64,000 bases of DNA from Candidatus Omnitrophota bacterium (GCA_029570205.1 JAKQSI010000045.1:31498-95497), one strand, 5' to 3'. Numbered from the stretch's first letter, positions 37,259 to 55,135 are shown. Translations and numbers: made by a program. The notes: generated from the sequence alone by a model not told the origin.

Positions 37259-38269
37259 ATGAAACTTCTGGTCATCGGAGCGGGGTCTATCGGACAGCGG
37301 CATCTGAGGAACGCCCTGCAACTGGGCGGTGTGGAATGCTCTGTTGTGGAGCCTGATCCGCAACGGCGCGAGGCAGTTGCTGCCGCCTGTTCCATCCCTG
37401 TGTTTGGGGACCTGGAGGAGGGTATTGCCTGGCGACCGCAGGCGGCGATGGTCTGCACCCCCAGCCATGCTCATTTGGAACTGTCTCTCCGATGCGCAAC
37501 CGAAGGAATTCATCTGTTTATCGAAAAGCCAATTTCGCACAGTATGGATGGGTTGGATGAACTCAAGCGACTTGTTGAGAAGAATGATTTAATTTGCCTG
37601 GTGGGGTACAACCTGCGGTTTCACCCCGGTTTACAAGCGGTGAAGCAGGTTCTGGATGAGGGACGACTGGGTTCGCTCTGGTTTGCCGAGATCGAATATG
37701 GGCATTATCTTCCGTTCTGGCGGCCCGACCAGGATTATCGCAAGACTTACTCTGCGCATCGCGACATGGGCGGCGGCGCGATTCTGGACCTGATCCATGA
37801 GTTCGATTATGCGCAGTGGTTTTTCGGCAAGGGAACGCCGATCACCGCAGTGGGCGGCAAGCGATCCGGTTTGGAACTCGACTGTGAAGATTTGTGCGTG
37901 GCGATGGTAGAATACGAGCGGCCGTCGGGGATGCCGGTCCGGTTTCATCTGGATTACCTTCAGCGCAGGTATGTCCGGTATTGTCAGGTTATCGGGGAGC
38001 ACGGTGTGGCGCTGTGGGATATGCCCGCCGGGTTTACCCGGCTTTACCTGCCGACCGCAAAAAACACCCCTGAAGCTCATGATGGAACCGTTCTGTGCGA
38101 TTTCACCGATTTTGACTTCAACATTTGCTATATCCACGAGCTTGAGTCTTATCTTCAAGCTGTCGAAAATGGAGAGAGGCTGCCTTTGTCTCTTGATGAG
38201 GCCATCGAGACCCTTTCCGTGGCCCTCGCCGTTCGAGAGAAAATGCATCCCCTTCAATCCTCAGTCTGA
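37259..38269 (+). CDS. Gfo/Idh/MocA-family sugar oxidoreductase
   Basis: 336 residues. The N-terminal Rossmann motif is VIGAGSIGQRHLRN; the catalytic EKP motif is in HLFIEKPISH (near residue 94), and the GGGAILDLIHEFDYAQ segment with the His is typical of the family. NAD(P)-dependent oxidation or reduction of a sugar or sugar nucleotide in the cytosol. The best guide is context: it is the first gene of the plus-strand arm that continues with a CMP-sugar synthetase and a NeuB-like synthase, as PtmF does in the legionaminic acid genes of Campylobacter. Substrate inferred, not shown. 26 bases before the next gene. Confidence 0.88.
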   Translation: MKLLVIGAGSIGQRHLRNALQLGGVECSVVEPDPQRREAVAAACSIPVFGDLEEGIAWRPQAAMVCTPSHAHLELSLRCATEGIHLFIEKPISHSMDGLDELKRLVEKNDLICLVGYNLRFHPGLQAVKQVLDEGRLGSLWFAEIEYGHYLPFWRPDQDYRKTYSAHRDMGGGAILDLIHEFDYAQWFFGKGTPITAVGGKRSGLELDCEDLCVAMVEYERPSGMPVRFHLDYLQRRYVRYCQVIGEHGVALWDMPAGFTRLYLPTAKNTPEAHDGTVLCDFTDFDFNICYIHELESYLQAVENGERLPLSLDEAIETLSVALAVREKMHPLQSSV

Positions 38270-38295
38270 ACAGACTATTCCGGCGGGGAAAACCA

Positions 38296-39018
38296 TTGGA
38301 AAACAACGGCATCGAGGCAATCTGTCCCTGTGTGGCGATCATTCCAGCGCGAGGCGGCTCAAAACGGCTTCCACGCAAGAACATTTTGGAGATCGCGGGC
38401 GAACCGCTGATCGCCTACACCATCGAGGCGGCGCTGGAAGCCGAGATTTTTGAGGAAGTTATCGTCAGCACCGAAGACCAGGAAGTCGCGGAAATCGCCG
38501 AGTTCTGGGGAGCCAGGATCATGGAGCGACCGGCTCACCTTGCCGCCGACACCGCGACGGTAAAAGAGGTCTGCAAAAATGTCTTGCAGCATCTCCAGGA
38601 AGAGAGGGACGGCATTCAATCGTTCTGCTGTCTCTATGCGACCGCACCGCTACGTACCGGCCGGGACATTCTGGGCGCGGCACGGCTTCTCTGCGAACCG
38701 GATACGAATTTTGTGATGGCCGTCACAGGATATTCGCTGCCTCCCTGGCAGGCTTTGAAAGAAAGTCCGAGCGGACACCTGGAACCGATCTGGCCCGATC
38801 TGATTCAGAAAAAGACCCAGGAAGTGCCGTTCATGGTGGCCGATAACGGCAGCACATACTGGGCGAAAGTGGACGCCTTTCTGAAATACGGATCCTTCTA
38901 CGGTCCGGGATTGAAAGGATATGTCATGCCGAAAAATCGCTCCATCGACCTGGACGGGCCGGAGGATTTTGAGATTGTGCGGCTCCTGGTCGAACATCGG
39001 ATGCAGATGGGGGACTAA
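38296..39018 (+). CDS. CMP-nonulosonic acid cytidylyltransferase (NeuA/PseF/PtmB family)
   Basis: 240 residues. The nucleotide-binding motif IIPARGGSKRLPRKN (about 15-29) and later the R-T-G-D segment and the acidic C-terminal DLDGPEDF are those of acylneuraminate cytidylyltransferases. It activates a nine-carbon sugar with CTP before transfer. The start is TTG 38296 after GGCGGGG; no in-frame ATG precedes the catalytic motif. It sits between the oxidoreductase and a NeuB-like synthase. Whether the substrate is pseudaminic, legionaminic or a modified acid cannot be told from sequence. It is the only such transferase in the window, although there are two synthases. Confidence 0.87.
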   Translation: MENNGIEAICPCVAIIPARGGSKRLPRKNILEIAGEPLIAYTIEAALEAEIFEEVIVSTEDQEVAEIAEFWGARIMERPAHLAADTATVKEVCKNVLQHLQEERDGIQSFCCLYATAPLRTGRDILGAARLLCEPDTNFVMAVTGYSLPPWQALKESPSGHLEPIWPDLIQKKTQEVPFMVADNGSTYWAKVDAFLKYGSFYGPGLKGYVMPKNRSIDLDGPEDFEIVRLLVEHRMQMGD

Positions 39019-39050
39019 ATCCTGTCGATATCAACATACCGGTGGCCGTC

Positions 39051-40085
39051 ATGGTAGAGATTCGAATCGGCGAGAAGAAGTTGGGGGACGGGCATCCGTG
39101 CCTGATCTCCATGGAAATCGGCGCTACTCACACCGGCGTGGAAAGCGCCAGGAAACTGCTGGATGCGGTGGCACAAGGCGGAGCGGATGCAGCCAAGTTT
39201 CAGACATTGAATGCCGATCGTCTTATGGGGGACCGGTCTTTGCAGATCGAGTACCATACGCCGGACGGCAAGCATTCGGAATCCGTTTACCGGGCGCTCA
39301 AACGTCGCGAGCTATCGCCCGATGGGTGGCGGGAAGTGCGCTCGTATTGCCGAGCCCTGGGGCTGTTGTTTATTTCGACTCCCAGCGATCCGGAGACGAT
39401 TGACCTGCTGGTGGACCTCGGAGCCGATGCGATCAAGATCGCCAAGAGCGATATCAATTGTTTCCCCCTGGTGGAATATGCCGCAAAAACCGGGTTGCCG
39501 ATTATTCTCGACAGCCGGGAACGGTTTGAAGATGTCTGCCGCAGTTATGAGATTTGCCGACAACAGGGAAATGCGAATGTGATGATTATGCACTGCCCGT
39601 CGGGATATCCGGCGGAGTCGGCGGGGATTCATCTTTCGGTGATTCCACACATCCGGTCGATTTTCAATTGCCCGGTGGGGTACGCGGATCATTCGCTGGG
39701 GACAAAGATGAATTTCGCTGCCCTGGGACTGAGGGTCGATATGATCGAAAAGACCGTATCACCGGACCGAACAACGGATGCGGTGGAGCATTACATGTCC
39801 CTGGAACCCGGCGAGATCGGCGCGTTCGTTCGCGACATTCGGGAAATTGAGGACGCAATGGGGAATTCGCGAATCATGTTTACCTCGCGGGTCAATCCGA
39901 ATGTTCGCCGCAGCGTAGTCGCCGGGCGCGGTATAATGAAAGGTGAGACGGTTCAGTTGAAGGACCTGGATTTCAGACGACCGGGAACGCACCTTCCGGT
40001 AGATCAGTATGAGCGAATCGTTGGACGCAAGGCGTTGCGCGATATTCCGGAAGGGACGTTCCTGTCCCTGGAGGATTTCGGATGA
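39051..40085 (+). CDS. NeuB-family nonulosonic acid synthase, divergent
   Basis: 344 residues from ATG 39051 (GTG 39042 is the alternative). TIM barrel plus C-terminal SAF domain (VVAGRGIMKGETVQLKDLDFRRPG). NeuB-type enzymes condense PEP with a six-carbon N-acylated sugar. It keeps GADAAKFQT, AIKIAKSDIN and GYADHSLG, but the normally conserved IGxNHNG is IGATHTG (residues 23-29): Asn26 and Asn28 are Thr. It also has only about 25 % identity by eye with the PseI copy at 42460, so the two synthases probably make different acids. Its stop overlaps the start of the kinase gene (ATGA). Confidence 0.87.
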   Translation: MVEIRIGEKKLGDGHPCLISMEIGATHTGVESARKLLDAVAQGGADAAKFQTLNADRLMGDRSLQIEYHTPDGKHSESVYRALKRRELSPDGWREVRSYCRALGLLFISTPSDPETIDLLVDLGADAIKIAKSDINCFPLVEYAAKTGLPIILDSRERFEDVCRSYEICRQQGNANVMIMHCPSGYPAESAGIHLSVIPHIRSIFNCPVGYADHSLGTKMNFAALGLRVDMIEKTVSPDRTTDAVEHYMSLEPGEIGAFVRDIREIEDAMGNSRIMFTSRVNPNVRRSVVAGRGIMKGETVQLKDLDFRRPGTHLPVDQYERIVGRKALRDIPEGTFLSLEDFG

Positions 40086-41032
40086 GCGATGCGGTTTTCC
40101 GGCAGGTTTTCGAGGAGCGATATCACCACTTGGGGACGTTGGACATGATTCGTCCCCTGGCCGGACATGATATTAACTCCCGGAACCGGCTGTTGCGTGT
40201 CACCGACAGTTCCTCTACCTCTTATTTTGTACTCAAGGAAGTGATATCCGATTCGTTACTCGATTACCTGTGCCGACTGGTAGAGGCCTGTGCCCAGGAG
40301 GGGTTACCCGTTCCAAAAGTTTACCGCGATATAGAGAACCGACTCTTTTCACCCGGCGAGTCAACCAGCTATGTCCTTTTTTCGTATTCGCAAGGGAATC
40401 CGTTTCCAGGAACCGAGGCTGCGCTGTACTCGTTGGGGGAGTCGGTCGGGCGGCTGTTTGTTTTCTTACAGACGTGGTTTCCATCGGAGCGGGATTTTTC
40501 CCAATATGAGCCGCTGTGCCAGGACGAAATTTCGAAAGTCGCACAGATTTTGCCGAATTTGCGACTAAAACCCGAAACGCTTCTGACGATGAAACGGCTG
40601 CTCCGGTTTATGCCCCGACTGCTCTGGGAGGCGAAACAGCTGTGTGCCGCATCTCTACCTCGCCAGCTGATCCATCTCGATCTTCATCCCGACAATGTAA
40701 TTTTCTCCGGCGATCAAGTGGCCGCCATATTGGATTTTGCGCACATTCTTTATGAAATGCGCGGACTGGCGCTCGGCTACACATTGGACCGGTTTGTTCC
40801 TGATGCCAACTACGATTCCGCCAGGGTGTTTTTTCGGGGCGTCTGCAAACATCTCGATCTTCTTCCCTCCGAGATCACGCAAGTAGCTCGGTTTACTCGT
40901 CTGGAAGCGCTACGACGTGTCAGTTATATTCTTCGAGATTTGCTGCAGGGGGATAAAATCTGGGAGGATATGCTTTCGGTACATCTGCGGACGATCCAGC
41001 GTTCCTATCGGTGGGACCGATTTACCTGCTGA
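40082..41032 (+). CDS. Small-molecule phosphotransferase (APH/choline kinase-like)
   Basis: 316 residues. The protein-kinase-like fold of aminoglycoside and homoserine/choline kinases: an N-terminal lobe with FVLKEV (ATP-binding Lys), the catalytic loop HLDLHPDNVIF and the metal-binding ILDFAHI. ATP-dependent phosphorylation of a small hydroxylated substrate, perhaps a sugar or amino sugar. Four-base overlap with the NeuB-like gene makes it part of the same arm and hints that its substrate is an intermediate or a salvaged sugar of the pathway. It ends 10 bases from the convergent hisF-like gene. No resistance role is implied. Confidence 0.8.
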   Translation: MSDAVFRQVFEERYHHLGTLDMIRPLAGHDINSRNRLLRVTDSSSTSYFVLKEVISDSLLDYLCRLVEACAQEGLPVPKVYRDIENRLFSPGESTSYVLFSYSQGNPFPGTEAALYSLGESVGRLFVFLQTWFPSERDFSQYEPLCQDEISKVAQILPNLRLKPETLLTMKRLLRFMPRLLWEAKQLCAASLPRQLIHLDLHPDNVIFSGDQVAAILDFAHILYEMRGLALGYTLDRFVPDANYDSARVFFRGVCKHLDLLPSEITQVARFTRLEALRRVSYILRDLLQGDKIWEDMLSVHLRTIQRSYRWDRFTC

Positions 41033-41042
41033 ACCCCACTTT

Positions 41043-41801
41043 TTACCGCACGTCAATACCCGCCTGACGCATATACGCTTTCGCCTTTTTTGTGCTGTGT
41101 TCCGTATAATGGAATATATTCGCGGCAGCGACTGCATCCGCGCCACCTTTGATAATTCCCTCTACCAGATGCTCCCAGGTCTGGACTCCGCCCATGGCGA
41201 TCACCGGGATATCCACTGCTTCGACTACTTTTCGGATCAGATCAAGATTGTAGCCTTTCCGACATCCGTCATGGTCGATGGAATTGAGGAATATCTCGCC
41301 TGCGCCCCTTTCCTGTGCCTCGCGTGCCCACTTTGCTGTCTCCAGGCCTGTCGGCTCTCGGCCACGGTCGATACATACCTCCTCAACTCCCTGCTCGTTT
41401 CGCTTGGAGTCGATAGAGACGACGACACATTGATTCCCGAATATCGTGGCGCATTCGGTGATGAACTCAGGACGTCGCACGGCCTCCGTATTGATTGCAA
41501 CCTTGTCCGCGCCCAGACGCAGGAGTTTTCGCATTTCGTCTGTCGAGGTTACCCAACCGCCCACCGTGAGCGGGACAAAACATTTTCTTGAAAATCCATC
41601 CACTACAGTGTAGAATTTATCGCGCTGATCCTGATTTCGCGCAACATCCACAACGATAATCTCGTCAACAGCCCATTTGTTGAAAAAATCAACTGCCGTC
41701 ACGGGTTTCCAATGAATCACATTCGTGTGCTGGAATCCGATGCTTTGAACGACTGCACCGTCTCGAATCACCAGAACGGGAATCAATCGCTTTTTCAGCA
41801 T
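41043..41801 (-). CDS. HisF-like subunit of a sugar amidotransferase, catalytic Asp lost
   Basis: 252 residues, HisF (beta/alpha)8 fold: LTVGGWVTS, LGADKVAIN, HDGCRKGYNLDLIRKV and a final GGADAVAAANIFH. Of the two catalytic aspartates of true HisF, the second is kept (Asp131 in SIDSKR) but the first is Val11 (PVLVIRDG instead of PCLDVKDG). The IGP cyclase reaction should therefore be gone, while the ammonia channel through the barrel can remain. Together with the HisH gene 6 bases upstream and the WbpG/PseA-like gene it would make a three-part amidotransferase turning an N-acetyl sugar into an acetamidino sugar, as in the PseA/WbpG-HisH2-HisF2 systems. The histidine genes proper are not here. 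Confidence 0.85.
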   Translation of the reverse strand: MLKKRLIPVLVIRDGAVVQSIGFQHTNVIHWKPVTAVDFFNKWAVDEIIVVDVARNQDQRDKFYTVVDGFSRKCFVPLTVGGWVTSTDEMRKLLRLGADKVAINTEAVRRPEFITECATIFGNQCVVVSIDSKRNEQGVEEVCIDRGREPTGLETAKWAREAQERGAGEIFLNSIDHDGCRKGYNLDLIRKVVEAVDIPVIAMGGVQTWEHLVEGIIKGGADAVAAANIFHYTEHSTKKAKAYMRQAGIDVR

Positions 41802-41807
41802 GATCGA

Positions 41808-42437
41808 CTAATCCTTCAGGGCTTGATCCACGAAATTGCGCAACAGACATAAACCGGAACGCTGGCTCTTCTCGGGATGAAACTGCACACCGTAAATGTT
41901 CCCCCGTTGGACTGCCGCAACGATCTTCTGTCCGTGCCAACAGGTTGCCGCGATGACGGACGAATCTTCCGGTGAGACATCCATATAATAACTATGCACA
42001 AAATAGAAAATGGGACCGTCTTCCAGGTTCTTGAATATGGGTTCCTCGATTTCAATCCGGAGATCGTTCCAGCCGATATGGGGAACGCGGTATTGCGCGC
42101 TCTCCGGGTCAATCCGCCGGACTGTGCCTGTAATCCACCCAAGGCCGTCATGCTCCCCTTGCTCCAGGCTCTTCTCCGCAAGAAATTGAAGGCCGAGACA
42201 AATTCCCAGGTAAGGCTTTTCTTTCTCTAATACTTCCTCATTCAGGATTTCTACAAATCCGCTCTCACGAAGATTTCTCATTCCATCGCCGAAGGCTCCC
42301 ACACCGGGCAAGATGATTGCTTGAACCTCTGCGAGTTCTCTGGGATCACGAATGACGGTTGTTTTCTGATCGATAGCCTCGAATGCGCTCTCTACAGAAC
42401 GCAGGTTCCCCATTCCATAGTCGACAATACCGATCAT
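41808..42437 (-). CDS. HisH-like glutaminase subunit
   Basis: 209 residues. Class I glutamine amidotransferase of the HisH type: oxyanion PGVGAFGDG, nucleophile Cys80 in YLGICLGLQ, and His187/Glu189 in QFHPEKS. It releases ammonia from glutamine and passes it to the HisF-like partner encoded 6 bases downstream. Start ATG 42437 after GAGGTGG. The genes lie in the nonulosonate arm rather than with histidine biosynthesis, so I read this as the sugar-amidation paralogue. Confidence 0.9.
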   Translation of the reverse strand: MIGIVDYGMGNLRSVESAFEAIDQKTTVIRDPRELAEVQAIILPGVGAFGDGMRNLRESGFVEILNEEVLEKEKPYLGICLGLQFLAEKSLEQGEHDGLGWITGTVRRIDPESAQYRVPHIGWNDLRIEIEEPIFKNLEDGPIFYFVHSYYMDVSPEDSSVIAATCWHGQKIVAAVQRGNIYGVQFHPEKSQRSGLCLLRNFVDQALKD

Positions 42438-42459
42438 TCGAGTCCACCTCGATCCAGTT

Positions 42460-43521
42460 CTACTCTGATCCGCAGATCAGGTCCCACGCCAGCGGTGTTC
42501 CCTTTGAAATGTCGCAACTCGCCCGTCGCCCGAGTACCTCATGGTAGTAACGGGTATGCAGACCATGACCGGGGCGAATTACACGAATATTTTCTTTAGT
42601 AAAGGGATCTCCGGCCTTTACGTCCTGAACGACGAAGATGGATCGCCGCAAGAGGCGATGGGCGGATTCCTTGTCAGTTACATCATAATTCACCCGTCCC
42701 AGGGCCTTCTCCGCGGTACGGATTGCCTCGATTGTCTGCTGTAACTCCGGAGGCTCTAATGAGAAGGAAGCATCGGGTGAAGGATCGGAGCGCGATAACG
42801 CGAAATGTTTCTCGACGATACAGGCTCCCAGTGCAACGGCGGTAACCGGTACGGCAGAATACAGGGAGTGATCCGACAAGCCGACAGGAAGGTCGAATGC
42901 ATCCGCCAAATGGGGGATCGTGCGAAGATTCATTTCATCCGGGGACGCAGGATAGGCGCTGGTGCATTTCAACAGCGCCAGCTGAGTGCCGCCCGCCTTG
43001 CGAAACGTACGAACCGCCTCATCAATTTCCGCGAGAGTAGCGATGCCGGTAGACATAATAGTCGGCTTGCCCGTCTGAGCGATCCGTTCGATCATCGGCA
43101 GATGCACAACTTCGAAAGACGCGATTTTATATGCCGGAACGTCCATGGCTTCCAGAAAATCGACCGCCGTTTCGTCAAACGGGGTTGAAAACAGGTCAAG
43201 CCCCATATCCTCTGCGATTGCTTTCAGTTTCGGCTGCCAATCCCACGGGGTACAGGCTTTATCGTACAGGTCGTGAAGCACTTCCCCTTTCCAGAGAGAA
43301 TTCCCGCCGACACAGAAGTATTCTCGATCGCAGTTAATGGTCAGCGTGTCCGCGGTGTAGGTCTGCAATTTGATTGCATCCGCACCGGCTGCTTTCGCGG
43401 CTTTCATGATTTCCACAGCACGGTCGAAATCTTTACAATGATTCGATGACATTTCCGCGATAAAATACGCAGGGTACCCCGGCCCGATTTTCCGTCCACG
43501 AATTTCAATCCACCGACTCAT
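42460..43521 (-). CDS. pseI: Pseudaminic acid synthase
   Basis: 353 residues. NeuB-type TIM barrel with the metal and PEP-binding segments IAEMSSNHCKDFDRA (21-35, with N27-H28), GADAIKLQTYTADT and CDREYFCVGG of PseI, followed by a C-terminal SAF domain (RRSIFVVQDVKAGDPFT and IRPGHGLHTRYYHEVLG). It condenses 2,4-diacetamido-2,4,6-trideoxy-altrose with PEP to give pseudaminic acid. Its ATG (AAAGGAAA upstream) overlaps the end of the pseG gene by 17 bases. The SSNH wording and the company of PseG and PseH make it the better pseudaminic candidate of the two synthases. Confidence 0.9.
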   Translation of the reverse strand: MSRWIEIRGRKIGPGYPAYFIAEMSSNHCKDFDRAVEIMKAAKAAGADAIKLQTYTADTLTINCDREYFCVGGNSLWKGEVLHDLYDKACTPWDWQPKLKAIAEDMGLDLFSTPFDETAVDFLEAMDVPAYKIASFEVVHLPMIERIAQTGKPTIMSTGIATLAEIDEAVRTFRKAGGTQLALLKCTSAYPASPDEMNLRTIPHLADAFDLPVGLSDHSLYSAVPVTAVALGACIVEKHFALSRSDPSPDASFSLEPPELQQTIEAIRTAEKALGRVNYDVTDKESAHRLLRRSIFVVQDVKAGDPFTKENIRVIRPGHGLHTRYYHEVLGRRASCDISKGTPLAWDLICGSE

Positions 43522-45031
43522 TGGATATTTTCCTTTCCTTTATAAAATGATTTGCCTGAAACCCGCGAATCGTCTCCTGGCGATAATACTCGTAACCCGA
43601 TTTGGCGAATACACGGTTCGATGCTTCGTTATCTGTCTTTATGTATGCGTGAATTCGTTCCACATTGCGCTCCCGAAAGATACGCGCTGCCGACAATTCC
43701 AGCATATCGCGCCCGTACCCCTTGCCCCGATATTGGCCGTCAATGCTGATCGACACCACTGCGTCTTTTTCTTCCAAATCATAGCGAATCTGGCCGACAG
43801 CGGCGTCTTCGGGATTTACCGCGATGTAAATAATGCAGCTCGGATCCTGCATTTTCAAGTCGAACCAACGAACATGATCCTCCCATGGAATCGGGTCAGA
43901 TGTAAAGGATACCGAGCGAACTTCGGGGTCGTTCGCCCACTCCCAGAGCAGCCTTTCGTCATCTTTACAGGCTTTTCGGAGGCGAATCCGATTCCCGGAT
44001 AAATACATGGCAATGCGATCCGCGCCATAACCGTCGACCGGCATCCGGCCATTGTGTGCCATGCTCTCCCGCAAAGCGGGCTGCGCCAACAACCGTTGCA
44101 GGGCATAAGCAATCTCCTCCGGTGCAACCTCATCATGTCTACCCAGATTGATTGCGATTCCTCTGTTCGCAAGATAGTCGGCAATCTGCAACTGGTTGTC
44201 TGCCATGACAACTAAAATAGAGGGGATGCCCGTGTAGAGCAGCTCCCAGACCGTGGAACCCGCCGCAGATACAGCCACGCCCGCCCACGCCATAAGATCC
44301 GACATATTCGAGACATTCGATTCGACTGTTACCGGGAAGGAGATACCGGATGCCATGGCTCGAATCCGTTCGTACTGTGGATGATCGCCTGCCAGCACAA
44401 TGACACATTCCAGCTCCATGTCCCGGAGACTCTGTAAAGCGGTAACAACCTTCGCGGTCATGTTCCATGGGTCGGTTCCTCCCATGGTAACGAGTATATG
44501 CGCAGCACTGCCCGCCATCTTCGAGCGGTAATCAGCACAGTTCAGGAATTCTTCGCGAAGCAAGACATACCGGGTTCCCAGGAAGAGCTGAGCGTTGGAA
44601 CCGCGTGATCTGTATACCTGTTCGGACGCATAAGGGTTCTGATTGAGAATTGCGTCGACGTCGTAGCGGTCTGTGTGACAGACATCATCCATAACCAATA
44701 CACGAGAACCACAGCTTTTTAGCAGTTGATAATACCTCGATGTGAATTGGTAGCCATCAATTACACACCAGTCCGCATGTTCAACCGAAGCGGTAGCGGA
44801 TGTGACCGCAGAATCGGTTTCGCTACCATACTCTACGGATATGCCCTTGAGGGCTACGCCGGAGTTCCGAAGCCTGTCCGCAAGCACATCCGGTACAGCA
44901 GCGGATACGAAGAGGGGTTCTCCGCCGATTCGCTTCCAGGCCTGCGCCAGGGCCAGGCAGCGCATTATATGCCCGCTGCCCATTTCAGGCGTGGCGTCCG
45001 CGCGGATCAACAGAGTCTTCTTCTCTACCAT
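43505..45031 (-). CDS. pseG: PseG-PseH fusion: UDP-sugar hydrolase and GNAT N-acetyltransferase
   Basis: 508 residues. Residues 1 to about 345 are PseG (UDP-2,4-diacetamido-2,4,6-trideoxy-altrose hydrolase), with GSGHIMRCLALA holding the catalytic-type His21 and GSTVWELLYTGIPS near 265 as in GT-B-like nucleotide sugar hydrolases. From about 352 to the end is a GNAT acetyltransferase (IRLRKACKDDERLLWEWANDP, then GQYRGKGYGRDMLEL and NEASNRVFAKSGYE), as PseH. Fusing the two consecutive steps of pseudaminic acid formation occurs in several bacteria. PseB and PseC (dehydratase and aminotransferase) are not in the window. Overlaps pseI by 17 bases. Confidence 0.9.
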   Translation of the reverse strand: MVEKKTLLIRADATPEMGSGHIMRCLALAQAWKRIGGEPLFVSAAVPDVLADRLRNSGVALKGISVEYGSETDSAVTSATASVEHADWCVIDGYQFTSRYYQLLKSCGSRVLVMDDVCHTDRYDVDAILNQNPYASEQVYRSRGSNAQLFLGTRYVLLREEFLNCADYRSKMAGSAAHILVTMGGTDPWNMTAKVVTALQSLRDMELECVIVLAGDHPQYERIRAMASGISFPVTVESNVSNMSDLMAWAGVAVSAAGSTVWELLYTGIPSILVVMADNQLQIADYLANRGIAINLGRHDEVAPEEIAYALQRLLAQPALRESMAHNGRMPVDGYGADRIAMYLSGNRIRLRKACKDDERLLWEWANDPEVRSVSFTSDPIPWEDHVRWFDLKMQDPSCIIYIAVNPEDAAVGQIRYDLEEKDAVVSISIDGQYRGKGYGRDMLELSAARIFRERNVERIHAYIKTDNEASNRVFAKSGYEYYRQETIRGFQANHFIKERKISNESVD

Positions 45032-45055
45032 GATTGTTCCATGAACTCCGGGAGA

Positions 45056-46357
45056 TCAGAGGATAATACACTCCTCTTCCGAGTCGCGGGAAACACCCCG
45101 TCGCTTCGACGGCGCCAGCGGTTGGAACTTGTCGGAATAATATAAGTGACGGTTATTTCTTCCGAATGTCCGGTCATCTTCGGGAACCAGCGTGAGGCGA
45201 GCCGCCTCGACCAGCGGATCGGCTACGTGGTTTACGATAGAATCTGTAAGTGTCCATTTTCCATTGGAGTTTCTCTGCCATATAGCGGGATCGCGGTCTT
45301 TCTCAATCGCCGACTCCAATTCGGCTTCCGTCATTCCCAGGAAGTCAAGATAAACATCAAGGGACGACGGCCGTACGTGATCGTATTGTCGCACCATTTC
45401 GATGCCTTCCTCACGGGTCATGCGTCCGGCGCGGATTTCAAGGCTGGCGTGATCCGTCCCGCGTCCGTAGCCGAATTTCAGGTAGCGGAGGTAGTCATGC
45501 ACGTCATTTGCGTGGTCGTCGATCTTATGGTACAGGCTGAAAGTGCGATCGCGTTTCCCGCGTGCGATCTCGAAACCGTGCTCGCGCACCAGCATGTCCG
45601 CCAGCCGTCGGCTGTCCCACTCGATGTAGTTGCCGATGAATATCCCCCGGACTCCGACTTCCTCGATTTCCTCATCCGTAGGAAAAATATAGGGAGCAAG
45701 GTCCCGGCGCGTCAGTCCGCTCTCCGCGTTGATCAGGTCCTCTACCTCATAGCCGCGCATCTCATGTTCCTGGCGACACCATTTCGTAAATTCGGGGATG
45801 TCCTCCAGGCGGAACATGCCGGTCATTTCACTGTATCCGTGCTCACCCCAGATCAGCAGGGGGATACGATATTTCACGGCTATTTGAAAGGGGAACGTGA
45901 ATATCCCGGCGTGGTAATGCCAGGTGATATCTCCGACCTTCGTGACCATATAACGGGCAATCTTACGAACGGAGTCCGGATTGGCGGTAAAGCGGATCAG
46001 GTCACAGCCGAATTCTTTGACCAGATTGATCAGGTTGCGGATGCCGACTTTCGTGTTGAAAGTGTGGTTATAGGTCACCAAGAGGGGGTTGAGGCCATAC
46101 ACTTCTTTAACCAGGTATACCTGGTAATGACTGTCTTTCCCGCCGGAAACGGGGATAATGCAGTCATAGAGATTTCCTGTTCTGTGTGCTTCCTCTTTAT
46201 AGTGGGCGAGGATCTCGCAAAGCATCTGTTCGCGCCCCTGCCAGTCGATTTGTTTTTTCGATTCGTGTACCCGGCATCCGCTACAGATTCCCTGCTCGTC
46301 GAAAATGATTGTCGGGCGGGAATTTTCCGGGTAAAGACAACGCGCACAGTATCTCAT
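45056..46357 (-). CDS. N-acetyl sugar amidotransferase (WbpG/PseA/LPS O-antigen type)
   Basis: 433 residues. It starts with a zinc ribbon (Cys4, Cys7, Cys25, Cys28), then the PP-loop ATPase motif SGGKDS (71-76), and a C-terminal part with GYGRGTDHASLEIRAG typical of the WbpG/PseA group. These enzymes activate an N-acetyl group with ATP and, with ammonia from HisH through HisF, make an acetamidino group on a surface sugar. Start ATG 46357 with AGAGG seven bases upstream. The HisH-like and HisF-like genes are in the same operon three and four genes further on. Substrate is probably the nonulosonic acid or its precursor. Confidence 0.9.
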   Translation of the reverse strand: MRYCARCLYPENSRPTIIFDEQGICSGCRVHESKKQIDWQGREQMLCEILAHYKEEAHRTGNLYDCIIPVSGGKDSHYQVYLVKEVYGLNPLLVTYNHTFNTKVGIRNLINLVKEFGCDLIRFTANPDSVRKIARYMVTKVGDITWHYHAGIFTFPFQIAVKYRIPLLIWGEHGYSEMTGMFRLEDIPEFTKWCRQEHEMRGYEVEDLINAESGLTRRDLAPYIFPTDEEIEEVGVRGIFIGNYIEWDSRRLADMLVREHGFEIARGKRDRTFSLYHKIDDHANDVHDYLRYLKFGYGRGTDHASLEIRAGRMTREEGIEMVRQYDHVRPSSLDVYLDFLGMTEAELESAIEKDRDPAIWQRNSNGKWTLTDSIVNHVADPLVEAARLTLVPEDDRTFGRNNRHLYYSDKFQPLAPSKRRGVSRDSEEECIIL

Positions 46358-46408
46358 TGTGTGACCTCTCTTTGCAGCGGATCGTGTTTGTTCCTGCGAT
46401 GCGGGACC

Positions 46409-47161
46409 CTATCGTGACGCGAACAAGAAATACCAGGACATCAGTAACGGTCCTGAGATCTGAATCCGCTTGCCGTTCCGCAGTGTCTCGGTGTAGGTCC
46501 CCATTCCGCCGCCGTTCGGTTTCGGCAAATCCATATCGATCTCGAATGGAAGCGACTGAAATTCAGTATAGCCTTTGGCTGCAAACCGTTCGTGAATGCG
46601 GGGAATGGACCAGATATTGTAGGGTCGGATGGTGTATCCACCGCCTTTCAGGGGATCTGTGTAGTCGTTGATTTCCACTTTGGCGTCGACATTTCCGTCG
46701 AAAAATAGAGAGTTGGCGGCAAACCATTTGGGACGGAGATTCGTCACAGCGTCAATCAGGGCCTGGATATCGTTCAGTACCATGATGGTCTGCACACTGA
46801 AAATTCCGTCCACATTGCCGAGAAGATCCGGGTTGGGATTGTAGCAGTCTCCCTGAATCAATCGGCAGCGGTCTTCCAGATGATCGTCATGGAAACGCCG
46901 GTTGCCATATTCGACGAGTTCAGGATTCAGTTCTACGCCGGTAAATCGGATGTCGGGGTGTTTTCCGGCCATGTAATGGATCACCGCGCCGGCCCCCGCG
47001 CCAAAATCGACCAGGTGATGTCCCGGCTTCATCAGTTGTTTTTTATCAAGAAAATCGCAGAAAAAGACGGTGCTTCGTTTGGGGATGTCGAATTGACGTT
47101 TTGCATAATTCCAATTGTTCTCTCCCAATTGTTCAAATGTCGCACGAGGCTGATTGGGCAT
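46409..47161 (-). CDS. SAM-dependent methyltransferase
   Basis: 250 residues, class I Rossmann fold: VDFGAGAGAVIHYM is the SAM-binding glycine motif, GVELNPELVEYG the acidic motif after strand 2 and IQGDCYNP the following one. There is no clue to its acceptor, but the operon place (after the peptidase-like and before the amidotransferase gene) suggests N- or O-methylation of the glycan, as PtmH is thought to do in Campylobacter. AAGGA nine bases before ATG 47161. Confidence 0.82.
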   Translation of the reverse strand: MPNQPRATFEQLGENNWNYAKRQFDIPKRSTVFFCDFLDKKQLMKPGHHLVDFGAGAGAVIHYMAGKHPDIRFTGVELNPELVEYGNRRFHDDHLEDRCRLIQGDCYNPNPDLLGNVDGIFSVQTIMVLNDIQALIDAVTNLRPKWFAANSLFFDGNVDAKVEINDYTDPLKGGGYTIRPYNIWSIPRIHERFAAKGYTEFQSLPFEIDMDLPKPNGGGMGTYTETLRNGKRIQISGPLLMSWYFLFASR

Positions 47162-47190
47162 GGAACGGCATCCTTTCCGATTGAGCGGAC

Positions 47191-48573
47191 CTACTTGGAG
47201 AAACGCAGAATCCCCCGATCTTTCTCGCGTGGCGGACGGGGTTGTTTCTCCAACAAATCGAGTTCCGCAAGTTTGTTTAAAAAGTCCCGGACGAAAAAGA
47301 AATCCAGGTCCAGTTCATCCGAGATGTCCATTACCGACCGCTCGCCGTCGATGAGTGTCTGGATCTTCTCCAGCTGTCGAGCCTCCTTGCGGTATTTTGC
47401 AGGGTCGACATAGAGGTTGTACTGGTAAAGGTAAAGAGGTCCCTGATAACGGCGGATTGGAACATAGTCGGTTTCAAACACCTCGGTGACACGCATGAGT
47501 ATCCAGGCGCTTTCGACCATGTGATAGACATCCATATTTTCCAGGTTGTCGCTGTCGTAGTGATATTCCCTGTGCATGCCCCGGCTCAATCCGGCGGTGG
47601 GGATAGTAAATCCGGGGCCATTATAGAACATTTCGTCATTACCCCACAGTTGACGGTAGGGGCATTCGATAGAGGTAATCGTGTGCGAGCGAAAGACATT
47701 GCGAAGGATCTTATCCAGGCGGGAGTCGCCTTGCATGGTTTCCTGGAATCCGAGGGCCTCATGGCTGCTCAGCATGTCCAGGTAAATGCCGAAACGGAGT
47801 CGCTCGATATTTTCCTTCGGTGCGCGGGCGAGGTATGCAGCGGCGGCAAAGTATTCGGGTCCGAACAGGAAGCGGTAGGAGAAGGCGCGATTCTCAAGGG
47901 AGTTCAAGTAGTAGTACAGTTCCGAGGCAACCGCGACATTGGCAATCCCATCGCTGACCAGGCCGCGATGGCAAGTATGTGCCATAAGGAAAATCGTGTC
48001 TTCATACCGGCCCGGCAAAAATGCGTCTACGACCTTGAGTGTTCCGTCATTATCAAGTTCCGTCTCGATATCCACCACGTAGTATGGATCGGTGAGATGT
48101 TCCACAAGACGATAGGGAAGGCTGAATCCCCATTCCTCGACATTGTAGCGATAGCCGTTTCGGTAATGATATGGGCTTTCTTCGGGGCGGCTGGGATCGC
48201 TGCAAATATGTTTATCAAGTAGTTCCTCCCGGCTGATTCGTCCTATGCAGGAGACGGAGTGGGTCCACAGTGCAAGCGGCTGGGAATCGAAATCGACGAT
48301 CAAGCGACCTTGTGTATCCATCAGGCGCGCATGTCGGACACGCCAGCATTTCGGAATGCGCCATGTCAGACACACCTCGCCGCTTTTCGCCTCGACGGTC
48401 GAGGCATTCAGCGATTTCTGCAAGTGAGAAACAAACCGATCTGTATCGGGATTCACGGCGGTTCGGTTAAGATACCAGTAATCTTTCACCAGCGCCGTCA
48501 TTCGGGCGCGGTCGACCGGGATTGACGGGGGAAAAGGGTACTTAAAAGTTGAACGCGAGCCGGAATCCTGCAT
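47191..48573 (-). CDS. DUF4910-type aminopeptidase-like protein
   Basis: 460 residues from ATG 48573. Layout as in DUF2172/DUF4910 proteins: an early beta domain (WRIPKCWRVRHARLMDTQG region, 70-95), the M28-like metal site segment LMAHTCHRGLVSDG and later CPYRQLWGNDEMFYNG and REYHYDSDN, then a C-terminal winged-helix part (DISDELDLDFFFVRDFLNKLAELDLL region). These proteins are frequent in surface polysaccharide clusters, including nonulosonate ones, and are presumed zinc peptidases or amidases; activity is not proven. It starts 7 bases after the sulfotransferase stop and 29 bases separate it from the methyltransferase. Confidence 0.82.
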   Translation of the reverse strand: MQDSGSRSTFKYPFPPSIPVDRARMTALVKDYWYLNRTAVNPDTDRFVSHLQKSLNASTVEAKSGEVCLTWRIPKCWRVRHARLMDTQGRLIVDFDSQPLALWTHSVSCIGRISREELLDKHICSDPSRPEESPYHYRNGYRYNVEEWGFSLPYRLVEHLTDPYYVVDIETELDNDGTLKVVDAFLPGRYEDTIFLMAHTCHRGLVSDGIANVAVASELYYYLNSLENRAFSYRFLFGPEYFAAAAYLARAPKENIERLRFGIYLDMLSSHEALGFQETMQGDSRLDKILRNVFRSHTITSIECPYRQLWGNDEMFYNGPGFTIPTAGLSRGMHREYHYDSDNLENMDVYHMVESAWILMRVTEVFETDYVPIRRYQGPLYLYQYNLYVDPAKYRKEARQLEKIQTLIDGERSVMDISDELDLDFFFVRDFLNKLAELDLLEKQPRPPREKDRGILRFSK

Positions 48574-48580
48574 GATATGA

Positions 48581-49873
48581 TTATCCTGATGTTTTTTGCG
48601 ATATCCCTTGTCGCAGTTTATCGAACAGATCGGGGAAGAGAAAACTTCCCTCGATGATTTCGGAAAACACGTTCTCCAATTCATCTTTCCGAGCGTTCAG
48701 CAATTGCTCGCGAATTGTTTCTTTAGACATCTCCACTGTTGTGTGAAGGGGATTGTTCGGGAGAATGTCCAGGGTCCACGCGGCAAGGTCGCTCTCGGCC
48801 ACACGTGGCGGTGAAAGCAACAGGGACCGTGTAAAGCACCGTTCGGCGATATCGGGGGAATAATCAAGAAGCGACATTTCGGGTCCGCAAATCGTCTCAA
48901 TCAAAGCAATTTCCTGTGGGGACAAAACCCTCCTCCATTTATCGACCGAACTGGGATCAAACTGTTGTTTTCCTTCGCCGCAGGAGGTATTTTGTTTCCA
49001 GGGTTGTCCCTTTCCGTCGACATATAAAGCGGGGTCGACCATTGTGGGAGCGAAGTCAATTCCGAGAAACTTGCAAATTGCTGTTGCTGTCCGGTTCGGC
49101 TCGGTTACGAGATCCTCATAACGGATACAGAACACGCGGTTATCGAGGAGAGCGTTCGGCTGCCGGTATTTCCAGGCCAAGGCGGTGAGTTTCCGCCATT
49201 GCCGGGCCAGAAACAGCCAGGGATACCGGGGCGGGCAGACATTTTTCGAGCCGCAGACCGCTCGCGGGTCGCGGATAATCTGAATAAACTTTGCAGTCGG
49301 CACGCCTCGGGCTATGCCCGGAATAAACTCATCTGCCCAAACCTCTTTGAAACCGATGATTGATCCCCTGCCCTTCGCCTGATATCGGCGGATCAATTCC
49401 AGCATGGAGCCGAATATCTCGGTGTATGTTGCTCCAGCGATTTCATGCAGGTGGGGCATCAGTTTCGGCGAGTACGGTTCTCCATAAGTGCGAATTCTCT
49501 TCCGCAGGGCATCCAGCCCGCTCTCATCGAACGGGAGGTCCAGAGAAGAGTCCTGAATCCGTCGAAACAGGGCGATTCCGGACGGTGAGAAATAGTAGTC
49601 CGACAGGGGATAGTCCGGATTGGAGTCGGGCATGGACAGAGCCGCGAGTTGACTCCGAAAGGTCTTGAAAAACGGGAGATAGGGATCGGATGCAAGGACA
49701 ATCTGCGGGTGCGCATTCAGCATACGTCCCAACAGGGTAGTCCCGGAACGAAACATTCCGCTGATGAAAAGAGGAGTTGTGGACAAGTCGGTCGTTCCTC
49801 TGGCGCCGGATATCAGGGAGCTGTGTGTGGTGACCTCGCTTTTCGCTTTGAGTTGCTTCCCGGACCGGAACAA
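48581..49873 (-). CDS. Sulfotransferase
   Basis: 430 residues. The PAPS 5'-phosphosulfate loop is FISGMFRSGTTLLGRML (36-52) and the 3'-phosphate motif is IIRDPRAVCGSK; the segment IRYEDLVTEP is also typical. It should move sulfate from PAPS to a hydroxyl or amine on the glycan or a protein. It is the first gene of the minus-strand arm. Start uncertain: the best is TTG 49873, as no in-frame ATG lies upstream of the PAPS loop. PAPS synthesis genes are not in the window. Confidence 0.82.
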   Translation of the reverse strand: MFRSGKQLKAKSEVTTHSSLISGARGTTDLSTTPLFISGMFRSGTTLLGRMLNAHPQIVLASDPYLPFFKTFRSQLAALSMPDSNPDYPLSDYYFSPSGIALFRRIQDSSLDLPFDESGLDALRKRIRTYGEPYSPKLMPHLHEIAGATYTEIFGSMLELIRRYQAKGRGSIIGFKEVWADEFIPGIARGVPTAKFIQIIRDPRAVCGSKNVCPPRYPWLFLARQWRKLTALAWKYRQPNALLDNRVFCIRYEDLVTEPNRTATAICKFLGIDFAPTMVDPALYVDGKGQPWKQNTSCGEGKQQFDPSSVDKWRRVLSPQEIALIETICGPEMSLLDYSPDIAERCFTRSLLLSPPRVAESDLAAWTLDILPNNPLHTTVEMSKETIREQLLNARKDELENVFSEIIEGSFLFPDLFDKLRQGISQKTSG

Positions 49874-51846: not shown

Positions 51847-52233
51847 CTATACTTCGGGATTCCATATTTTCCCTGACTCGTCTGGTGTTCGGCTGATGCG
51901 AATCCTGCCAACTCGAACTGTCACAAAACAACCGGAGAGACTCTCACCCCGTTGTCTGACCAGTTCAACGACATCTTTGGAAATCTCGTACCGGGCAAGC
52001 GTGGGATATCGGAGAAAGACAACACCCAACGTTCTCCGTCCGTGAGCGTAAACCAGCTGGCCGAAGTCCTTGTCTTCCGTCAGAAGAATTCTCTGTTCTC
52101 GGAGAGCCATTTCCACGACATCGGTATCCTCGGCTCCCCGAACTTGCTCTCCCACGGCCAGCACATCGTGACCCGCTTCACGGAGCGCCATCACAACAGT
52201 GGAATCGCAACATTCATCAGCGAGAAAACGCAT
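51847..52233 (-). CDS. DUF5615 PIN-like protein (toxin-like)
   Basis: 128 residues. PIN-like nuclease fold of the DUF5615/Mut7-C relatives: MRFLADECCD at the start (Asp acidic residue), the DTDVVEMA helix and ILLTEDKDFG (second acidic set). These proteins commonly follow a DUF433 gene and the pair is presumed to be a toxin-antitoxin or RNA-processing module. The start overlaps nothing and lies 12 bases after the DUF433 stop. Activity not proven. Confidence 0.85.
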   Translation of the reverse strand: MRFLADECCDSTVVMALREAGHDVLAVGEQVRGAEDTDVVEMALREQRILLTEDKDFGQLVYAHGRRTLGVVFLRYPTLARYEISKDVVELVRQRGESLSGCFVTVRVGRIRISRTPDESGKIWNPEV

Positions 52234-52696: not shown

Positions 52697-54571
52697 GTGG
52701 GTGAAAAGAACTCGCAGATGTTCGAGGACAATTTCGCCGCTCTCCGGGCGCGGTTCCCCTCGCTTGCCGGGCGGATTGTGTCACCGGCAGAACCCGGCAA
52801 GTGCGTTGTGATTGGAACGCCGTCCGGATTCCCGACTCTGATGGTTCGAACGTCAAGAGGAGAGGATGTGCTCTATCACAGCCGACATGATCCGAGGCGG
52901 GAAGCGATCCGGTGGGCGGAATCGCCCGATATCCGCGAATCCTCCCGGATGATCCTGTTCGGGCTGGGATTCGGATATCATGCCCTGGCTCTCTTGATGG
53001 CAAGGCCGAGGGATTATCTCTGTATTGTCGAACCACGTATGGACGTCCTTCGCGCGGCCATGGAGTGGGTCGATCTGCGACCGATTCTGAACCAACCGAG
53101 TGTTTTACTTTTATGCGGCGAGCCGCCGGAGAACCTGTACCGGGCAATCCTGTCGCGAATGGGGGAGTTTCTTTCGACGGGATTCGATTTCTTCATCCTG
53201 CCGCCCGCCGCCCGCGCCTGTCCCGATGAATTGCTGCAGGTTCAAAGGGAGATGGACCGTGTCAAGGAAGCTTACGATGGAATGCTGCGTCATATAGAAA
53301 CCACGGGGTTACGGACGCAAGAGCATCTTTTCCGCAATATCCCCGCGATGTACCGTGCGTATCCTCCGTCGGTTTTGAAGAATAGGGCTATGGGATGCCC
53401 GGCTCTCATTGTGGCCGCCGGGCCGTCGCTCAACAAGAACATCGACCAGATCGTGTCCGCTGCAGGACACGCGGCGATTTTCTCCGTGGATACCTCCCTG
53501 CGGCTTCTTCGGGCGCGCGGGATCGAGCCGCATTTTGTTGTGACCAAGGATGCATCGGATCTGAATGAACGTCATTTTGAGGGGATTGAGTATCTCGGAA
53601 AGACACTGTTTGTGTTTGACCCGCAAGTGTCGCCGCGCCTCACAGGGAAGTATCAGGGGCCTTCGATTTTCCTACCGCACCGATGCCGTTGTTTGCACCG
53701 GTATCTTCAGGGACGGCATCTGACTGATGATGACATGTTGCCGTTCAGTCAGACGGTGGCATTGGCGGCATTTCACTTAGCCCACCTGATGGGTTGCTCT
53801 CCGATTATCTTTGTCGGATTGGATCTCGCATTTCCACGGGGGGCCGGAAGCAGCCATGCTGCCGGGACGGCCCTGGAGGCGGAGGTTTCGTATACGGCCT
53901 CCGGGGAGATGGTTTACCGAAGACCTGAAGGAGGCGATGCGTACCGGGAACAGGTCGAGATGGTCCGGACCCCCGGAGTGGACGGGGGCATGGTTCCCAC
54001 CAGCCCGATTTTCTACGAGTGCATTCGGTACCTGGAGGGGCTGATTGCCGAAACCGGCGTGCATTGTGTGGATGCCACCGAGGGCGGTGCGCGAATCGAG
54101 GGCACGGAAATCATCCCGTTTTCTGAGGCGCTGGAACGATATCTGCGAGATGAGTGGAATGTGTGGAGTATGCTGGATAGGATTCGCCAAATCTCGCTGC
54201 CGAAGGTCCCCGGTTCGTTGTTCACGGACTTGGCGGGCGTTGTTGAGGACGGAGTGGAGAAATCGCGTCGGGGACTGGAGGCGATCTCCAATGTCTCTGT
54301 CCGGGCTGACTGGGAGGAGGTGGCCTTCCTATTGGGGCGTTTGCAGGCGATTCGGGAGGAAATCGAACAGGGATTCCGATTATATGAGATCCTGGAGCCG
54401 GCCCTGGAACGCCTGTTTGTTACGATCCGAGCGCCGGGATATTTCGCGCTCAAGAGCGATCTTCCATCGCGATTGCGCCTGTTGGATCGTTATGTCCATT
54501 ATTTCAGCGAGATTCACCGAGTGGCGTCGGTGTTCGGTCCGCTGTTGCGGGAGATGGGAGGAAAAGAATAG
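52697..54571 (+). CDS. Maf/DUF115 motility accessory factor, nonulosonate transferase to flagellin
   Basis: 624 residues, GTG start 52697 with AGGG eight bases upstream. The central domain (about 225-400) is DUF115/MAF: CPALIVAAGPSLNKNI, AIFSVDTSLRLLRARGIEPHFVVTKD and, near 370, VGLDLAFP. The N-terminal part (about 40-200) and the C-terminal helices are the usual extra domains of Maf proteins. Maf proteins transfer activated pseudaminic or legionaminic acid to Ser/Thr of flagellin in the cytosol. With the nonulosonate locus 3-15 kb away this fits well; no flagellin gene is in the window, so the acceptor is inferred. Confidence 0.85.
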   Translation: MGEKNSQMFEDNFAALRARFPSLAGRIVSPAEPGKCVVIGTPSGFPTLMVRTSRGEDVLYHSRHDPRREAIRWAESPDIRESSRMILFGLGFGYHALALLMARPRDYLCIVEPRMDVLRAAMEWVDLRPILNQPSVLLLCGEPPENLYRAILSRMGEFLSTGFDFFILPPAARACPDELLQVQREMDRVKEAYDGMLRHIETTGLRTQEHLFRNIPAMYRAYPPSVLKNRAMGCPALIVAAGPSLNKNIDQIVSAAGHAAIFSVDTSLRLLRARGIEPHFVVTKDASDLNERHFEGIEYLGKTLFVFDPQVSPRLTGKYQGPSIFLPHRCRCLHRYLQGRHLTDDDMLPFSQTVALAAFHLAHLMGCSPIIFVGLDLAFPRGAGSSHAAGTALEAEVSYTASGEMVYRRPEGGDAYREQVEMVRTPGVDGGMVPTSPIFYECIRYLEGLIAETGVHCVDATEGGARIEGTEIIPFSEALERYLRDEWNVWSMLDRIRQISLPKVPGSLFTDLAGVVEDGVEKSRRGLEAISNVSVRADWEEVAFLLGRLQAIREEIEQGFRLYEILEPALERLFVTIRAPGYFALKSDLPSRLRLLDRYVHYFSEIHRVASVFGPLLREMGGKE

Positions 54572-54637
54572 TCCGGCTTGACGCTTGCCCTCTTCCGAAG
54601 CAGGATAGTGGCGTGTTTGATTTGGAGTAATAGATCA

Positions 54638-55135
54638 ATGGAAAGTGATATCAAGTTTTTCGCGGACGATATGGTAGGGCGACTTTGCTGGTGGCTCCGA
54701 ATGATCGGGTACGACACAGCCTATGAGCGGGATATTGAGGACGACGATCTTGCCCGCCGCGCGCAAGAGGAAGACCGTATTGTTCTGACACGCGATACCA
54801 CCTTCGCCGAGCGTTATCCCGACCTGACCGTCCTGTCGCTACCCACAGACCGCCCGGAAGTGCAGCTGTGGCTGGTTCTAAAAACATACCAGCTGGATTA
54901 CGACCATGCCTGGTTCTCGCGGTGTCTTGTCTGCAACGATGAGCTGTTGCCCGTACACAAGGAAAAATACGCCGAACGAATCCCTCCGCACGTACTGGAA
55001 ACCCTCGACGAGTTCTGGTACTGCCGGACCTGCGATCAGCTGTTCTGGAAGGGAACTCACCACAAGAACATGATGATGAAGCTGGAGCGTTTGAAAGAAC
55101 GCTTGCAGAAAATGGAAGAACAGCGCGGCCGATGA
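54638..55135 (+). CDS. Mut7-C RNase-like protein with zinc ribbon
   Basis: 165 residues from ATG 54638, GGAG about 11 bases upstream. The N-terminal PIN-like part has FADDMVGRLCWWLRMIGYDT and IVLTRDTTFAERYP, the Mut7-C pattern with its acidic residues. The C-terminal part has CLVCNDEL and CRTCDQLFWKGTHH, the usual zinc ribbon. Probably an RNA-cleaving or RNA-binding protein; biological role not known. It follows Maf by 66 bases and ends 12 bases from the convergent OppC gene. Confidence 0.88.
   Translation: MESDIKFFADDMVGRLCWWLRMIGYDTAYERDIEDDDLARRAQEEDRIVLTRDTTFAERYPDLTVLSLPTDRPEVQLWLVLKTYQLDYDHAWFSRCLVCNDELLPVHKEKYAERIPPHVLETLDEFWYCRTCDQLFWKGTHHKNMMMKLERLKERLQKMEEQRGR

Follow-up and report, generated by a model that had tools for sequence, protein, structure and literature searches.

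Twelve genes in the genome of a Candidatus Omnitrophota bacterium probably direct the formation and tailoring of a CMP-activated pseudaminic acid, for which flagellins would be the likely acceptors, with a divergent NeuB-fold protein (here syn2) and its coupled kinase contributing an accessory step. We regard the pseudaminic acid tailoring locus as an ordinary and nameable gene set in an unusual host, and syn2 as a conserved, re-tooled protein of the NeuB fold. The locus brings a near-complete flagellin sugar pathway, similar to that of Campylobacter, to an uncultured lineage and ties the poorly understood DUF4910 proteins once more to amidinated pseudaminic acid. The chemistry of syn2, a conserved protein with a rebuilt active site, is open to direct test and, should the reaction prove new, would widen the range of the NeuB synthase fold.

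A convergent locus of twelve genes

The window, the whole stretch of 64,000 nucleotides that was analyzed, spans bases 31498-95497 of contig C114 in a draft genome of 4.39 Mb that is 93% complete. Gene families were called with the curated cut-offs of Pfam and NCBIfam, and 14 genomes represented the phylum in the comparison. All twelve genes proved to be real open reading frames, with Pfam and NCBIfam families and positions as the sequence-only reading had given them for a convergent locus with a 10-base gap. The two arms meet tail to tail, the kinase stop at 41032 and the HisF stop at 41043 being separated by 10 bases, and as convergent arms they form separate transcription units.

The plus arm begins with a Gfo/Idh/MocA oxidoreductase (37259..38269, plus strand; PF01408, 72.6 bits), whose relatives at 34-38% identity adjoin PseI-type or PseB/PseC genes in two of the compared genomes (G004 and G006). 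It continues with a PseF-like CMP-sugar synthetase, a CTP transferase (38296..39018, plus strand; TIGR03584 PseF, 201.5 bits against a cut-off of 205.7), then with syn2, a divergent NeuB-fold protein with a SAF domain (39042..40085, plus strand; PF03102, 195.9 bits), and ends with a small-molecule kinase of the APH superfamily (40082..41032, plus strand; PF01636, 51.2 bits) that overlaps the syn2 stop by 4 bases. Beyond the genus, relatives of the kinase among 386 genomes amount to two weak matches of 32-33 bits, and its structure model has a pLDDT of 39.5.

A Campylobacter-like minus arm

The minus arm can be read as a route that synthesizes pseudaminic acid, amidinates it and alters an acyl group in the manner of Cj1295. 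Its PseI pseudaminic acid synthase (42460..43521, minus strand) scores 473.8 bits on TIGR03586 against a cut-off of 340.25; the catalytic motifs are intact, the active site is canonical, and the best PDB match is Campylobacter jejuni PseI (8h2c). The adjacent gene (43505..45031, minus strand) encodes a fusion of a UDP-sugar hydrolase, PseG (residues 6-287; 212.1 bits, cut-off 153.55), to an N-acetyltransferase, PseH (residues 354-486; 48.1 bits, cut-off 93.1). An N-acetyl sugar amidotransferase of the WbuX/WbpG/PseA type (45056..46357, minus strand; TIGR03573, 363.7 bits, cut-off 203.2) aligns with the N-acetyl sugar amidotransferase of PDB entry 8wex (E 5e-47). It is accompanied by a HisH-like glutaminase (41808..42437, minus strand; TIGR01855, 239.2 bits, cut-off 105.4) and a HisF-like protein (41043..41801, minus strand), the putative ammonia-channel partner of the amidotransferase, which the WbuZ model outscores HisF in describing (265.9 against 250.3 bits) though the WbuZ cut-off is 299.7. 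Curated cut-offs are thus passed by PseI, PseG, WbuX and HisH, and the PseF, PseH, PseC and WbuZ assignments lie below their equivalog cut-offs.

Since two full HisF copies above the equivalog cut-off lie elsewhere in the genome (C104:13256-13999 and C119:13046-13813), the HisH/HisF pair of the locus is not needed for histidine, and we discounted these two genes as histidine genes.

The remaining minus-arm genes are candidates for further decoration. A DUF4910/DUF2172 protein (PF16254, 146.3 bits) aligns with 3k9t, the structure of CA_C2195 (E 7e-36), and retains all three zinc ligands. The listed frame (47191-48684, minus strand) opens within the sulfotransferase gene; inspection by eye favors as start an internal ATG near 48573, just past the sulfotransferase stop, giving 47191..48573. 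The family is defined by the Clostridium acetobutylicum protein CA_C2195 (PMC4000134), and the di-O-methylglyceroyl form of pseudaminic acid requires Cj1295 (PMC3068675); our label of Cj1295/CA_C2195 type follows this described family and not a direct alignment to Cj1295. A SAM-dependent methyltransferase (46409..47161, minus strand; PF13649, 37.6 bits) may modify the acyl group or, by analogy with PtmH of Campylobacter coli (cited in PMC13317340), the amidino nitrogen. The outermost gene encodes a sulfotransferase (48581..49873, minus strand; PF13469, 86.3 bits), and sulfation and methylation might fall on one and the same acid.

On a plasmid of the haloarchaeon Halorussus aquaticus (L058, 11986-15449), a DUF4910 gene lies one gene from a NeuB-family synthase and a DegT aminotransferase, with a Gfo/Idh enzyme nearby.

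The sequence-only reading had called the mixture a set that it could not name. The minus arm closely matches the pseudaminic acid set of C. jejuni flagellin, and is therefore nameable.

Missing steps, flagellins and Maf proteins

PseB and PseC had been predicted to lie elsewhere, and candidates for both are present. PseB is encoded on contig C52 (456 bits, cut-off 407.75), and the best PseC candidates are DegT aminotransferases on C20 and C128, for each of which PseC is the best model at scores below its cut-off of 423.5 (371 and 353 bits). The legionaminic alternative raised in the same reading is disfavored: among the candidates scanned, LegB reached 65.6 of the 475 bits and the LegC family 240 of the 420 bits of their cut-offs, and genome-wide no protein passes NeuC/LegG, the best NeuC score being 82.9 against 235.9. 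Since every legionaminic marker tested stayed below its cut-off, the product is likely to be pseudaminic acid. The genome has two true NeuB-family genes, both in this locus; a third PF03102 match, on C42, was set aside as a synthase since its sequence reads, by eye, as a DAHP synthase.

The absence of flagella and of any nonulosonate had been named as an observation that would count against this reading, and the genome holds seven flagellin genes, none of them inside the locus. It also encodes eleven MptE/Maf-like proteins, each some 600-700 residues long. One Maf/PseD-like glycosyltransferase gene (52697..54571, plus strand) sits 2.8 kb past the sulfotransferase; it exceeds the cut-offs of PF01973 (129.9 bits) and PF20157 (37.2 bits), scores 71.4 bits on the PseD domain model (cut-off 670), and is the probable transferase of the acid.

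This Maf gene is flanked by a DUF5615 gene (51847-52233) and a gene with a Mut7-C RNase domain (54578-55135). The seven flagellin-like frames are large, about 810-920 residues, and MptE/Maf-like and flagellin-like frames occur on contigs C1, C8, C59, C84, C100, C109, C114 and C128.

Conservation of the convergent order

Two further species of the genus share the convergent arrangement, making three with this one, so that the arms are linked in relatives as well. In one of them (G009) the order syn2, kinase, HisF, HisH, PseI, PseG-PseH, WbuX, methyltransferase, DUF4910 and sulfotransferase is identical, including the adjacency of sulfotransferase (83% identity) and DUF4910. In the other (G008), a contig of 3.6 kb retains PseG-PseH, PseI, kinase and syn2. 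Both contigs end inside syn2, and linkage of the Gfo/Idh and CTP transferase genes is for that reason not checkable in these two species.

Purifying selection acts on all of the genes compared. Against G009, dN/dS lies between 0.03 and 0.16 for all ten genes (kinase 0.05, methyltransferase 0.09), and the range across all comparisons is 0.03-0.30. Between intact PseI and kinase genes in G008 (contig C142, L062:2194-2406), about 18 codons of HisH and 44 residues of HisF lie in different frames; unless the assembly is at fault, this species has apparently lost HisH and HisF and, with them, the ammonia supply for amidination.

These observations bear on whether the arms merely happen to be neighbors. 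Unrelated surface-sugar genes brought together by chance, with no common role for the two arms, would be compatible with arms that face each other as separate transcription units. We consider such an origin very improbable: the convergent order persists in three species whose synonymous divergence runs from about 0.15 to above 1, and the minus arm has no CTP transferase of its own. Families, linkage and conservation support a single locus whose linked genes, those for amidination included, serve a pseudaminic-type acid, as had been proposed.

syn2, a divergent NeuB-fold protein

Two dissimilar synthases had been read from the locus. Their dissimilarity holds; an ordinary synthase is doubtful for the second, which lacks key catalytic residues, and syn2 is probably a re-tooled enzyme instead of a second canonical synthase. 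It falls below both equivalog cut-offs (232.8 against 399.65 for NeuB and 187.9 against 340.25 for PseI). Aligned with Neisseria meningitidis NeuB, it carries S132K, S154D, N184S, S213A, H236T and D247E, and it retains E25, K53, Q55, T110, K129, H215, E234 and the SAF arginine R313/R314. H236 of NeuB is presumably the second metal ligand, and S132 and S154 are presumably phosphate contacts. In syn2 the metal histidine H215 is kept, H236 has become threonine, and most of the residues for the PEP phosphate are gone. The residues around the ligand in NeuB include T110, K129, N184, S213, H215, E234 and R314 (PMC6795526). The G009 copy of syn2 still has serine at position 213, and S213A is therefore not fixed in the genus.

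A structure model of syn2 (31 sequences) has a pLDDT of 93 and a TM score of 0.83-0.87 to NeuB/PseI (1xuu, 8h2c), which points to a NeuB barrel with a SAF fold; as a prediction, it is silent on metal or PEP binding. Its dN/dS against G009 is about 0.05 over 174 codons, and on this value, with the absence of stops, we rejected a decaying pseudogene. Plasmid searches returned canonical synthases only, where the motif was read; a phage search gave three weak matches, and a scan of genome contigs found only two contigs, both of the same genus.

The nearest parallel lies in G006, a genome from another family of the same order, where the gene for a histidine-less NeuB-fold protein precedes those for a PseF-like CTP transferase and a member of the APH family. 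The two NeuB-fold proteins share S154D, S213A, the proline and glycine of the HCxxxYP motif and the loss of H236, and they group at 95/90 in the tree, both on long branches. The H236 equivalent is absent only from syn2 of the genus, the G006 protein (EKP) and one very divergent protein among about 95 NeuB-family proteins, a domain-wide sample that was ordered by similarity to syn2 or to the G006 protein and is not random. The kinases of the two loci are alike at the superfamily level only. The parallel is suggestive, and not proof, that syn2 and the G006 protein may be one family.

A second locus in this order, on contig C3 of G006 (L075:4973-10231 and 14695-16203), contains a PseG-PseH fusion, PseB and PseC, along with two Gfo/Idh enzymes similar in type to that of the plus arm and a protein that joins a nucleotidyltransferase to a class III aminotransferase.

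What syn2 does may be read in several ways. An ordinary NeuB-type synthase that tolerates its changes, so that the locus makes two nonulosonic acids, would fit its family, its fold and the strong purifying selection upon it. We think this quite improbable, as almost all of the roughly 95 family members compared have the metal histidine and S154D would place an acid where we take a serine to lie near the PEP phosphate.

In the domain-swapped dimers that NeuB enzymes form, each chain contributes its SAF arginine to the active site of the other. Such an arrangement would allow syn2 to act as a non-catalytic or half-catalytic partner that tunes PseI as a heterodimer, an explanation consistent with a protein that keeps this arginine (R313) and the fold but neither the metal histidine nor most PEP-phosphate residues, and that is linked to PseI in three species. 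Equivalents of E25, K53, T110, K129 and H215 are, however, more than a pseudoenzyme needs, and syn2 lies in the opposite arm with a kinase of its own; we judge a regulatory partner unlikely, somewhat less so than an ordinary synthase.

The locus could also make two acids, with pseudaminic acid coming from the minus arm and a second CMP-activated acid from a self-contained plus-arm route in which the kinase phosphorylates the sugar substrate. In G006 the histidine-less protein does adjoin its own CTP transferase and APH-type kinase and groups with syn2, and a second PseF-like gene, on C113 (146.9 bits, with no synthase in the stretch examined), could serve PseI. Yet the plus-arm CTP transferase fits PseF better, and is indeed the best PseF match of the genome; the tree grouping joins two long branches; the two kinases differ beyond the superfamily; and a substrate supplier of the NeuC/LegG type above the cut-off was not found. 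We hold this possible but rather doubtful. To a similarly tentative degree, syn2 may represent a new class of NeuB-fold enzyme that dispenses with PEP and the usual metal site and that acts together with a CTP transferase and an APH-type kinase dedicated to it, either to make an undescribed CMP-activated acid or to tailor pseudaminic acid in a new way.

Proposed pathway

In the single-acid reading that we favor, UDP-GlcNAc would be converted by PseB (C52) and a PseC (C20 or C128). The PseH domain of the fusion would acetylate the sugar, its PseG domain would release the sugar from UDP, and PseI would condense it with phosphoenolpyruvate, after which the PseF-like enzyme of the plus arm would charge the acid with CMP. 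WbuX/PseA, acting with HisH and HisF, is predicted to convert an acetamido to an acetamidino group, and the DUF4910 protein of Cj1295 type, probably together with the methyltransferase, would exchange or decorate an N-acyl group. A Maf protein would finally transfer the acid to protein. syn2 and the coupled kinase may supply an accessory step maintained by selection.

Comparison with known systems

The flagellin locus of C. jejuni (Cj1293-Cj1295 and Cj1311-Cj1318) is the closest counterpart. In C. jejuni and C. coli, Cj1313 is PseH, Cj1314c HisF, Cj1315c HisH, Cj1316c PseA and Cj1318 Maf1 (PMC12102941). Common to the two systems are PseG, a PseH (here a candidate domain), PseI, a PseA-type amidotransferase with HisH and HisF paralogues, a DUF4910 protein of Cj1295 type, PseB, Maf proteins and flagellins. 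The Omnitrophota locus differs in its PseG-PseH fusion, in the placement of PseB and PseC outside it, and in the addition of genes for a sulfotransferase, a methyltransferase, a Gfo/Idh oxidoreductase, an APH kinase and an altered second NeuB-fold protein.

In C. acetobutylicum, the CA_C2187-CA_C2199 cluster (PMC4000134) likewise sets DUF4910 amid a NeuB-type synthase, a Maf-type transferase, N-acetyltransferases and a methyltransferase domain; among the genes compared there is no WbuX/HisH/HisF set, sulfotransferase or APH kinase. With N. meningitidis NeuB and C. jejuni PseI (1xuu, 8h2c), syn2 shares the fold and the SAF domain, but it lacks equivalents of H236, S132, S154, N184 and S213.

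Flagellin modification by the sfmABCDE genes of Shewanella oneidensis (PMC3765264) also involves a NeuB-domain protein together with a methyltransferase. These genes differ in having other partner enzymes, no noted SAF domain and no PseI, PseG, PseH or PseF orthologues and, operating without a full pseudaminic acid gene set, they offer a precedent for NeuB-like proteins in other roles.
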